Assembly (NCBI GenBank): GCA_000403415.2
Contig: KE159682.1
Span: forward strand, 1-47,618
Reading direction: 5' to 3'
Source: Firmicutes bacterium M10-2
Lineage (GTDB): Bacteria > Bacillota_I > Bacilli_A > Erysipelotrichales > Erysipelotrichaceae
Length of the DNA: 47,618 nucleotides
Shown here: positions 41,870-47,618 of the stretch, piece after piece
How the letters are laid out: the number at the start of each line of letters is the position of its first letter
Numbering within the stretch: the first letter of the stretch is position 1
The notes under the pieces: model-generated
Databases searched by the model: none
What the model was told of the DNA's origin: nothing
The model's input: only the letters and a program-made list of their open reading frames with translations
Program-made: the position numbers and the translations under genes

Positions 41870-41906
41870 AAAAGTCCACTAGTATACTACTAATGGACTT
41901 TTTTTA
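41870..41906. terminator. Shared terminator of the HAD and ABC genes
   Basis: AAAGTCCA pairs with TGGACTTT, with an inner TAGTA/TACTA stem and one mismatch. T residues follow on the plus strand and A residues precede, so it can serve both convergent genes. Confidence 0.85.
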
Positions 41907-42797
41907 TAAATTGATATAAATCGGACAGTTTTCCTTACAAGGACGATCCGAAAGAACACAAAAAATTTTTTCCTCCAGCCGTCCAACATGAAGATAGCGA
42001 TCTTTATATTCAATCACCTCTTCATCGATCCACCCTGACACTTCGATCCATCCTTTTTTCTTTTCGAACGAGCACTCATCGATCGCAATAATATGACCTT
42101 TCCACTCGTTCATTCCAAGCAAGGACAAAGAAGAAGCAATATCAATAGTCGCCGGATGTTTTTCAATTGATTCCGGACTTCCGATTTGTGCGATCTTGCT
42201 ATGTTCGAGGACGATCATTCGATTGGCCAACAAAAGAGATTCCTGAAAGTCATGGGAAACAAAAACCAAAGTGACCTCCAGATCCTTAAGCCATTGGATC
42301 AAATCGAAAATCAAGTTTTTCTTTAATTCCGGATCAAGATGATTAAATGCTTCATCCATCAACAAAAGTTTTGGATGGGAAACCAAAGCTCTAGCAATCG
42401 CCACACGCTGTCTTTGTCCTCCGGATAAAGAACTTGTTCTCTGCCCTAAATATGTATCTGTTCTTGTTAAATCGGCAATTTCTCTTACTAGGCTTTCGAT
42501 TTCTGTTTCATTAAACTTTGACCGATCCAAGCCAAACGCAATATTTTCATAAACACTCAAATGATCGAAAAGACGATCTTCCTGAAAAACAAGACGGACC
42601 GTCTGTCCTTGTTCTTTATGAATCTCTCCTTTTGTCGGCTTGATCAAACCTGCCAAAAGCGATAAAATGGTGGTTTTTCCCGATCCAGAAGGACCATAAA
42701 GAACAATACGCTCTTTATTATGAATCTGAAAACTAATATCTTTTAAAGCCTCGATCCCGGAAGGATAGATCAGACTTACGTGATCAAATACAATCAT
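41904..42797 (-). CDS. Orphan ABC transporter ATP-binding protein
   Basis: This protein of 297 residues is an importer-type ABC ATPase. It has Walker A GPSGSGKTT (35-43), Q-loop VFQEDRLF, signature LSGGQRQRVAIARAL, Walker B LLLMDE and switch SHD. The extra C-terminal region of about 90 residues ends with a cysteine pair (RPCKENCPIY). It resembles ATPases of the nitrate/taurine or thiamine uptake families, but no permease or binding protein is next to it, so the substrate is unknown. The start at 42797 has GGGAG upstream; a longer frame would begin inside the duplicated terminator next to the mobile element. Confidence 0.85.
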   Translation of the reverse strand: MIVFDHVSLIYPSGIEALKDISFQIHNKERIVLYGPSGSGKTTILSLLAGLIKPTKGEIHKEQGQTVRLVFQEDRLFDHLSVYENIAFGLDRSKFNETEIESLVREIADLTRTDTYLGQRTSSLSGGQRQRVAIARALVSHPKLLLMDEAFNHLDPELKKNLIFDLIQWLKDLEVTLVFVSHDFQESLLLANRMIVLEHSKIAQIGSPESIEKHPATIDIASSLSLLGMNEWKGHIIAIDECSFEKKKGWIEVSGWIDEEVIEYKDRYLHVGRLEEKIFCVLSDRPCKENCPIYINL

Positions 42798-42826
42798 TCG
42801 CGCAACTCCCTTTTTAGACAAATCGA

Positions 42827-42852
42827 AAAAAAGCCCTAAAAAGGGCTTTTTC
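42827..42852. repeat. Target duplication, left copy (terminator hairpin)
   Basis: This 26-base sequence is the same as 43044-43069. It is a terminator: AAAAAGCCC and GGGCTTTTT pair around TAAAAA-type loop bases. It borders the left end of the 191-base element. The matching copy on the other side indicates that the whole hairpin was duplicated on insertion. Confidence 0.85.
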
Positions 42853-43043
42853 CAGGCTGTTGACAAAGTCGATTTTTCAAATCGGCTTTGTCACAGCTTT
42901 TTATTTTTCTCCCACAAATGAATAAAAAAAGAGCAATTTGAGGTATTTAAGTACCTAATATTACTCTTTTTTTAGACCTTTTTACCCACTTTTATTTTAT
43001 TGAAATTTAATTTTTTCAAAATAGGTAGTTTGTCAACACTCTG
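42853..43043. mobile_element. MITE-like element, copy 1 (191 bases)
   Basis: The element starts CAGGCTGTTGACAAA and ends with the imperfect inverted copy (reverse complement CAGAGTGTTGACAAA, 13 of 15 matching). It codes for no protein. It contains three hairpins: 42862-42892 (14 pairs, next to the left end), 42924-42973 (A/T-rich terminator-like stem around AGGTA/TACCT), and a weaker one near 43000-43020. It reads as identical to 46395-46585. The position is between the rplL terminator and the ABC gene. The small size, inverted ends and flanking repeats fit a non-autonomous transposable element; the mobilising transposase is not in the window. Confidence 0.85.
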
Positions 43044-43069
43044 AAAAAAGCCCTAAAAAGGGCTTTTTC
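43044..43069 (-). terminator. rplJ-rplL terminator, target duplication right copy
   Basis: This 26-base intrinsic terminator (GCCC/GGGC stem with A and T runs) lies 19 bases after the rplL stop. The same sequence stands at 42827-42852, on the other side of the mobile element. Confidence 0.9.
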
Positions 43070-43087: not shown

Positions 43088-43456
43088 TTACTTCACTTCA
43101 ACAGTTGCACCGGCAGCCATCAATTTTTCTTTAATTTGGTCTGCTTCTTCTGGAGCAATGTTTTCTTTAATTGTTGCAGGTGCAGAGTCTACTAATTTCT
43201 TAGCATCTACAAGACCAAGACCGGTAATTTCACGAACAGCCTTGATAACAGCAACTTTTGTTCCACCAACAGAAGTCAATGTAACAGTTACTTCAGTAGG
43301 TCCTGCAGCAGCTTCTTCTGCAGCAGCTGGAGCAGCTACAGCGGCAGCAGCCACAACACCGAATTTATCTTCGATTGCTTTTACTAGATCATTAAGTTCT
43401 AAAATTGTTGCTTCTTCTAAGTAAGAAAGGATTTCTTCTTGAGTTAATTTAGCCAT
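43088..43456 (-). CDS. rplL: Ribosomal protein L7/L12
   Basis: This protein of 122 residues forms the stalk that recruits translation factors. It has an N-terminal dimerisation helix, an alanine-rich hinge ([17 protein letters not shown] near 33-50), and a C-terminal domain with [20 protein letters not shown]. It follows rplJ by 24 bases and ends at the duplicated terminator. Confidence 0.97.
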
Positions 43457-46372: not shown

Positions 46373-46394
46373 AAATGAATTATACCATTCATTT
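46373..46394. repeat. Target duplication, left copy (22-base hairpin)
   Basis: This 22-base palindrome (AAATGAA and TTCATTT arms) is identical to 46586-46607 and borders the left end of the second 191-base element. Confidence 0.88.
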
Positions 46395-46585
46395 CAGGCT
46401 GTTGACAAAGTCGATTTTTCAAATCGGCTTTGTCACAGCTTTTTATTTTTCTCCCACAAATGAATAAAAAAAGAGCAATTTGAGGTATTTAAGTACCTAA
46501 TATTACTCTTTTTTTAGACCTTTTTACCCACTTTTATTTTATTGAAATTTAATTTTTTCAAAATAGGTAGTTTGTCAACACTCTG
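46395..46585. mobile_element. MITE-like element, copy 2 (191 bases)
   Basis: This copy reads base for base the same as 42853-43043, in the same orientation. It has the same inverted ends and the same hairpins (46404-46434 and 46466-46515). It sits in the divergent gap between the small membrane protein gene and the kinase gene and is flanked by an exact 22-base duplication. Complete identity suggests both insertions are recent, or that they are kept the same by gene conversion. Confidence 0.87.
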
Positions 46586-46607
46586 AAATGAATTATACCA
46601 TTCATTT
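46586..46607. repeat. Target duplication, right copy (22-base hairpin)
   Basis: The exact copy of 46373-46394, directly after the right inverted end of the element. Confidence 0.88.
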
Positions 46608-47505: not shown

Positions 47506-47526
47506 AAACCTTCATAATGAAGGTTT
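47506..47526 (+). terminator. Terminator of the kinase gene
   Basis: A perfect 21-base palindrome (AAACCTTCAT, A, ATGAAGGTTT) with A residues before it lies about 25 bases after the kinase stop. Its T-run is cut short because a mobile-element end starts directly after it. Confidence 0.8.
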
Positions 47527-47618
47527 CAGACTGTTGACAAACGGGCGGTATTCTTGAAGTAAGAATGCTGCCCGTTTTTATTTTTCTATTTTCACGACTC
47601 CAATTCATACTTTTTCTT
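47527..47618. mobile_element. Partial third element with the same end sequence
   Basis: The first 15 bases, CAGACTGTTGACAAA, match the element end of the two complete copies except for one base. A hairpin follows at the same offset (arms AAACGGGCGGTATTCTT and AAGAATGCTGCCCGTTT, two G-U pairs) and then the shared TTTTTATTTTTCT. The rest differs from copies 1 and 2 and runs off the window. It could be a divergent small element or the end of a full insertion sequence carrying the transposase. Confidence 0.65.

Follow-up and report, generated by a model that had tools for sequence, protein, structure and literature searches.

Whole-hairpin target duplication at a gene-free mobile element of Firmicutes bacterium M10-2 and at related IS1182-family insertion sequences

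Hairpins are known targets of some insertion sequences (ISs), and targeting of palindromes has been attributed to certain members of the IS1182 family (Siguier 2015, cited in the available text of PMC4923244 and PMC5678879). For example, IS1272 and TnSha1 of staphylococci target hairpins, including terminators, without a sequence consensus, and IS1272 deletes or replaces the stem-loop with no target duplication (PMC4923244, PMC5678879, available text). Duplication of a whole hairpin has been drawn as hypothetical, in pathways b and c of Fig. 13 of PMC5678879, with no example in the available portion of that article. Here, we describe a stretch of 47,618 nucleotides from Firmicutes bacterium M10-2 (contig KE159682.1, positions 1 to 47,618; hereafter the window), in which a gene-free miniature inverted-repeat transposable element (MITE) of 191 bp lies between two exact copies of the predicted intrinsic terminator hairpin of rplL. 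Throughout the genome, most copies of this MITE are flanked by a duplicated complete hairpin, and the length of the duplication depends on that of the hairpin, from 18 to 32 bp, rather than being fixed.

A search of the host genome (2.4 Mb in 22 contigs) with the inner pattern of the MITE, allowing up to three mismatches, returned 59 copies, compared with 0 matches for a reversed control pattern. All 59 were read with their flanks, the first window copy being taken from the window itself. Fifty-six match the reference over its full length without a difference; of the other three, one is broken by a run of N (L021) and two have 189 bases with 98.4% identity (L073, L074). This near-total identity suggests that the MITE spread in a very recent burst. 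Its designation as a MITE reflects its 191-bp length, its lack of genes, and 15-base ends that each differ by one base from the end of an IS in the same genome.

An exact direct repeat of 18-32 bp that constitutes a complete stem-loop flanks 53 of the 59 copies, and these 53 stem-loops are symmetric about the repeat midpoint to within one base. Within each site the two hairpins are identical, and from site to site the hairpin sequence differs. A target repeat of at least 9 bp is present at 57 copies, and in 46 of these 57 repeats symmetric Watson-Crick pairs make up at least 70%, compared with 1.6% of windows slid along the same sites. The association does not depend on knowledge of the repeat: in a blind hairpin search of the empty site with 60 bases on each side, the best hairpin was centred within 0.5 base of the repeat midpoint at 47 of 57 sites, against an expectation of 0.54. 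In addition, pairing ends flush with the cut or one base inside it at 34 of 53 sites, a count for which the repeat's edge was used to tolerate mismatches.

The window copy beside rplL illustrates the arrangement, and its features are as follows:

42853..43043, plus strand: gene-free MITE of 191 bp, with 59 copies in the genome
42827..42852, no strand assigned: the copy of the rplL terminator hairpin farther from rplL, one half of an exact 26-base target duplication
43044..43069, no strand assigned: rplL-proximal copy of the duplicated hairpin, in which A6 within the repeat is T6 on the minus strand
42853..42867, plus strand: left terminal inverted repeat, CAGGCTGTTGACAAA
43029..43043, minus strand: right terminal inverted repeat, CAGAGTGTTGACAAA, 13/15 identical to the left
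43088..43456, minus strand: rplL (ribosomal protein L7/L12), owner of the targeted terminator
41904..42799, minus strand: ABC transporter ATPase gene, encoded on the rplL strand and separated from rplL by the MITE, with a probable start at 42799 judged from an ATG
42923..42973, no strand assigned: near-palindrome inside the MITE, with 7-base A and T tracts, predicted to be terminator-like on both strands

The repeat flanking this copy, AAAAAAGCCCTAAAAAGGGCTTTTTC, is present as two exact 26-base copies and forms a hairpin with A/T tracts. An earlier note, made from the letters of this DNA, had correctly delimited the 191-base element, its 15-base inverted ends (which match at 13 of 15 positions), and the exact 26-base repeat, and its reading of the repeat as the intrinsic terminator of rplL fits a hairpin with a T-tract at which rplL ends on the minus strand. 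Its further proposal, that the terminator serves both neighbours, is not supported. With six A (T on the minus strand) inside the repeat, the T-tract is retained in both hairpin copies, but rplL and the ABC ATPase gene share the minus strand, so that rplL alone ends at this hairpin. As for the near-palindrome inside the MITE (42923-42973), it might insulate either side or act as a landing site.

Sites that lack an element provide a view of the target before insertion. At a site of a related IS in Enterococcus faecium, one AATAGAGCTTTTCAGCTCTATT is present in three IS-less plasmids (200-base flanks 98.5-100% identical) and two surround the IS in the occupied plasmid. Similarly, a Providencia site has one AAGCCCCTAAATCAGGGGCTT in two IS-less records (92-96.5% identical), compared with two when occupied. 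Thus, at these two sites, both of related elements, all five empty plasmid records retrieved, out of many listed, have a single hairpin. In the alignments, the overlap between the two flanks is exactly the repeat, and no base was therefore gained or lost at the junctions. In the genus of the host, genome G001 has an element-free single hairpin, of diverged sequence, at 3/4 orthologous places, namely rplL and C12:501409 (both flanks aligned) and C12:483645 (one flank); the fourth, C12:401852, is unreadable because gene content differs. A second genome of the genus (G002) had no candidate and no match to the left-end pattern, and was of no use as an empty site, and a search for empty phage sites for two Streptococcus suis copies found none, with one partial match (H92). 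The earlier note had expected most other copies to be flanked by duplicated hairpins, a test set beforehand, and related sites without the element to hold no double hairpin; the 53 of 59 copies and the single hairpins at the plasmid and G001 sites agree with both.

The MITE is likely driven in trans by an IS of 1646 bp in the same genome, which has identical 15-base ends, CAGACTGTTGACAAA, and one gene for a transposase of 475 amino acids (aa), as the ends shared by the two elements suggest. Six places with CAGACTGTTGACAAA ends have a readable repeat, of 21-26 bases and in every case a hairpin; three of the elements are full-length or nearly so (1645-1646 bases), two are internally deleted (557 and 822), and one has an interior of N (at 47527). 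Two more full-length IS copies are without a readable repeat, one beside an N run and one with different hairpins at its ends. Outside this count, the genome has further CAGACTGTTGACAAA-like ends, which among the matches listed include those at C1:286016, C1:356089-358300, C17:61321, C17:84019, C17:102919-105564, and C16:231788. One of the six begins at the end of the window, and a second MITE copy lies a short way before it:

46395..46585, plus strand: second MITE copy in the window (L024), identical
46373..46394, no strand assigned: left copy of its 22-base hairpin duplication
46586..46607, no strand assigned: right copy of its 22-base hairpin duplication
47527..47618, plus strand: element with IS ends CAGACTGTTGACAAA (L077), which begins in the window and extends to C2:49760, its interior reading N; probably a copy of the IS, as both ends match
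47506..47526, no strand assigned: left copy of the 21-base hairpin duplication bordering this CAGACTGTTGACAAA-ended element

The earlier note's guess that the family was IS1182 proved right, as the transposase scores 400.1 bits against NF033551 (IS1182 family; cut-off 270), with the domains DDE_Tnp_1_6 (102.9 bits) and DUF772 (59.1 bits) both above cut-off. An AlphaFold2 model built from 18 sequences (mean predicted local distance difference test score 82) has a predicted DDE-type fold. The closest solved chain was Tn5 transposase with VIA-align 2 (Z 14.2, root-mean-square deviation 5.0, 275 residues) and piggyBac with Foldseek (E 5e-4, TM-score 0.30). D146, D295, and E422 are invariant in 21 relatives and would fit a DDE triad. 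A sequence search of solved structures gave two matches only, both ribosomal proteins at chance level.

Another candidate driver, a second IS1182-type IS in the genome (527 aa, 1867 bp, GGGGCTGT ends), was ruled out because its ends differ and it has no repeat. Its copies (L074 1236-3104, L075 1490-3358, and L076) have GGGGCTGTAACG ends and no target duplication. At L048, a short remnant, and at L074, an end of this second IS occupies the position expected of a hairpin copy next to the MITE, as if replacing that copy.

Relatives of the IS were collected by a scan of species genomes, which gave 32 loci, and by whole-genome and plasmid searches, which added more. A separate set, also of 32, comprises the elements for which both CAG-type ends were read (18 from the species-genome scan, 9 from whole-genome searches, and 5 plasmid-borne), leaving out duplicate records and loci with one end cut off or not found. 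An exact repeat of 19-32 bases is present in 25 of these 32 relatives, and all 25 repeats fold as hairpins, the weakest at -2.5 kcal/mol (L099); the 25 include three sets, of two or three elements each, that are copies of one IS within one genome. Hosts of the duplicating relatives include Erysipelotrichaceae, Merdibacter, a Clostridiales bacterium, Enterococcus raffinosus, and an E. faecium linear plasmid, with more distant examples on a Providencia IncC plasmid (38% transposase identity) and in an uncultured bacterium (35%). Taking ends individually, a hairpin scoring at least 15 abuts 68 of 75 ends (40 loci, six of them from the host genome) compared with 3.0% of 2387 random points, with the qualification that both ends of one insertion are not independent. 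Outside the 32, two copies in S. suis phage are flanked by hairpin repeats, of 24 bases in one and 18 in the other, and at a third copy one of the two repeats has diverged; two further phage records yielded only one end. In two rabbit-gut metagenome-assembled genomes (L091, L092), the IS sits at the same hairpin sequence in opposite orientation, which suggests that one target was used twice or that the element inverted.

As to the MITE itself, among 195 genomes of the family, the left-end pattern matched only in the host genome and in G392, of another genus, which has three left ends of a related MITE; in two of its copies (L251, L253) the first 41 bases are identical and the sequences then diverge, and a hairpin abuts the end in both. 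Genome G016 has a 190-base MITE of 71% identity with a 20-base hairpin repeat.

A tree of 56 transposases places every row labelled as a duplicator (20 in all) under one fork (96/95), one of them (L138) being labelled through its sister copies L152 and L158. This fork contains no row labelled as replacer, loop-type, or ISCfr1-type; it also holds 12 rows without a duplicator label, mostly for want of an end. A strict label count gives 9 changes, and some long branches are flagged. The 12 GGGGCTGT-type rows, including the 527-aa transposase of the host, form a separate clade with four unlabelled rows. Their elements have repeats of at most 2 bases, often with A/T feet on both sides, a pattern that reads as expected from hairpin replacement. 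Two other IS1182-family elements (L223, L226), with GAAGTCACTG- or GAGGTCACTG-type ends, have repeats of 8-9 bases inside a hairpin when read by eye, covering the loop region or the loop and part of an arm, and such repeats possibly represent a third mode of the family.

We postulate that the MITE is mobilised by the 475-aa IS1182-family DDE transposase encoded by the 1646-bp IS with its near-identical ends. The end-bound transposase would select inverted repeats capable of forming a stem-loop, mostly intrinsic terminators, and would join the element's 3' ends to the two target strands, each at the 5' foot of its hairpin, these feet being the presumed points of strand transfer; gap repair would then leave two complete hairpins flanking the element. 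With joins at the 5' feet of both strands, the stagger would equal the whole stem-loop, and duplication length would thus follow hairpin length. We consider structure-directed joining at the hairpin feet to be probable, and hold it with good confidence. The symmetry of the two feet further suggests that both strands are folded at capture, as in an extruded cruciform, a step that we would put at about an even chance. It is tempting to speculate that this clade reads DNA shape rather than sequence or distance, capturing a cruciform and joining at the feet of its four-way junction so that the hairpin sets the duplication length, with terminators doubled, gene endings preserved, and two landing pads left behind, while in sister branches the hairpin is deleted or, it seems, duplicated in part; for this picture taken as a whole, we see the case for and the case against as evenly matched.

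The alternative that survives best would have the hairpins captured in single-stranded or transcription-linked form (on the lagging strand, on the non-template strand, or in nascent RNA where the polymerase pauses) rather than as a cruciform. Indeed, the duplicated hairpins look like intrinsic terminators, a hairpin followed by a T-tract, with a tract at 48 of 53 by a looser count (both strands 23, one strand 25), and 50 of the 59 insertions are outside open reading frames (ORFs) of at least 100 aa, compared with 26% of random points in the same stretches. Yet the orientation of the element relative to the T-tract has no clear bias (at a stricter tract threshold, right only 15, left only 9, both 7, and neither 22 of the 53 sites), 5/53 sites have no T-tract even by the looser count, and the cuts lie symmetrically on both strands. 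Capture of this kind is thus possible, if rather unlikely. Recognition in the transcript, in particular, is not favoured, because orientation shows no clear bias, five sites lack a tract, and some duplicated hairpins are inside ORFs. The earlier suggestion that the family recognises stem-loops, in DNA or in the transcript, and duplicates the full stem is upheld by the hairpin duplications at 53 of 59 copies, but the transcript half of it is not favoured. From the retained terminators and the 59 copies, it is plausible that insertion is nearly harmless, and the cost to the host would be low.

In a second alternative, a transposase dimer would treat the inverted repeat as normal duplex DNA and cut at a roughly fixed spacing of some 24 bp centred on the dyad, terminators just happening to be of that length. 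This would account for the clustering of repeat lengths at 22-26 bp (33 of 57), but not readily for lengths of 18-32 bp in one genome and 19-32 in relatives, nor for pairing that ends flush with the cut or one base inside it at most sites (the count that used the repeat edge). It is also opposed by the correlation of repeat length with hairpin span, found under all six definitions of span, which used the repeat midpoint and not its edges: Spearman coefficients were 0.39, 0.65, 0.70, 0.60, and 0.37, and 0.40 with DNA folding energies (n=53, or 52 for DNA folding; P from 0.007 to 4e-9). A higher value, r 0.93 at 38 sites, used the repeat edge for mismatch tolerance as well as selected sites and is not relied on. 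On balance, we regard fixed spacing as unlikely.

A number of observations nonetheless weigh against structure-directed joining, and the first of these concern length. The slope of repeat length on span is well below 1 (0.09 to 0.49), as fixed spacing would also predict, and many sites could extend A-T pairing beyond the cut; either a preferred length near 24 bp also contributes, or A/T tracts blur the foot of the hairpin. An initial permutation test, with a flawed measure of stem span, found no correlation with repeat length (r -0.03), because its stem-extension rule continued through random pairs; the six definitions supersede it. Three copies (L018, L019, L042) duplicate part of a hairpin only (10, 15, and 9 bp), as though one join were at the hairpin foot and the other at the loop; at one (L045, 9 bp repeat) no clear hairpin is seen; and two, L048 and L074, lack a repeat and are bordered by a hairpin to one side and by a terminus of the other IS opposite. 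Short terminator stems, moreover, are not readily extruded in plain B-DNA. Among the relatives, 7/32 are without an exact repeat: one has an imperfect 30-base hairpin repeat (L104), three are flanked by two unlike hairpins, the outcome expected of recombination between copies (L086, L087, L138), and three have a hairpin at one end only (L108, L160, L161). Finally, ISPse1, also of the IS1182 family, is tabled with a 4-bp repeat (PMC3281130, available text), so hairpin duplication is not family-wide.

Two remaining alternatives fare poorly. Purifying selection by itself, with insertion anywhere and survival only in terminators, would be in line with mostly intergenic insertions, but it cannot align the repeat edges with both hairpin feet, and repeats of ordinary sequence are nearly absent (1/57, L045); we consider it very improbable. 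The other, that both hairpins were already in place, perhaps as tandem terminators (which do occur in bacteria), and that the element inserted between them later, has next to no chance of being right, as hairpins are identical within a site and different between sites, and the idea is rejected at the sites tested by the single hairpin in 5/5 empty records and 3/4 same-genus places.

Structure-directed joining at the hairpin feet therefore remains our preferred reading, and it invites comparison with better-known transposons. Model similarity suggests that the transposase has DDE / RNase H chemistry in common with the Tn5 transposase (IS4 family). Tn5 makes a fixed 9-bp duplication, and a target duplication of constant size is the usual description for DDE transposons. 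In the present case its size varies with secondary structure, so that cut sites are predictable from hairpins. This may point to tools for inserting DNA after genes with their terminators kept, and provides a natural setting in which to ask if cruciforms form at terminators in living cells. It also suggests a way in which an element might build up to 59 copies in 2.4 Mb while causing little damage.

A literature search, with ISfinder and subscription reviews outside its scope, recognised no publication describing whole-hairpin duplication by an IS. The ISfinder table for IS1182 has long, variable duplications and palindromes, and single examples may be filed there. A further candidate is the IS1182-like element of TnCO-1 in Thermoanaerobacter kivui, which by its end looks like a member of the same group: at the P1/P2 junction a perfect hairpin is directly followed by CAGACTGTTGACAAA (PMC12056078, Methods, available part). 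Rearranged in a laboratory strain, this element also sits at a hairpin foot, and the words 'hairpin' and 'stem-loop' are absent from the main text of that article (PMC12056078).

The closest comparison is with IS1272, which belongs to the same family as the present IS and also targets hairpins, and whose transposase has about 24% identity to the 475-aa protein. The outcomes are opposite: IS1272, as described in the available text of the sources cited above, removes the hairpin, whereas the present element keeps and doubles it. Hairpin-duplicating and hairpin-replacing elements are thereby placed as branches of one transposase family. The product seen here is the one predicted by pathway b (PMC5678879, Fig. 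13, available portion), with 5'-foot joins and gap repair, now shown by many insertions and by empty sites. For IS1182 family members, the available parts of the cited sources do not describe a clade that as a rule duplicates entire terminator hairpins exactly. Thus, hairpin targeting was already known in this family, and what is new is a duplication whose length depends on the structure of its target.
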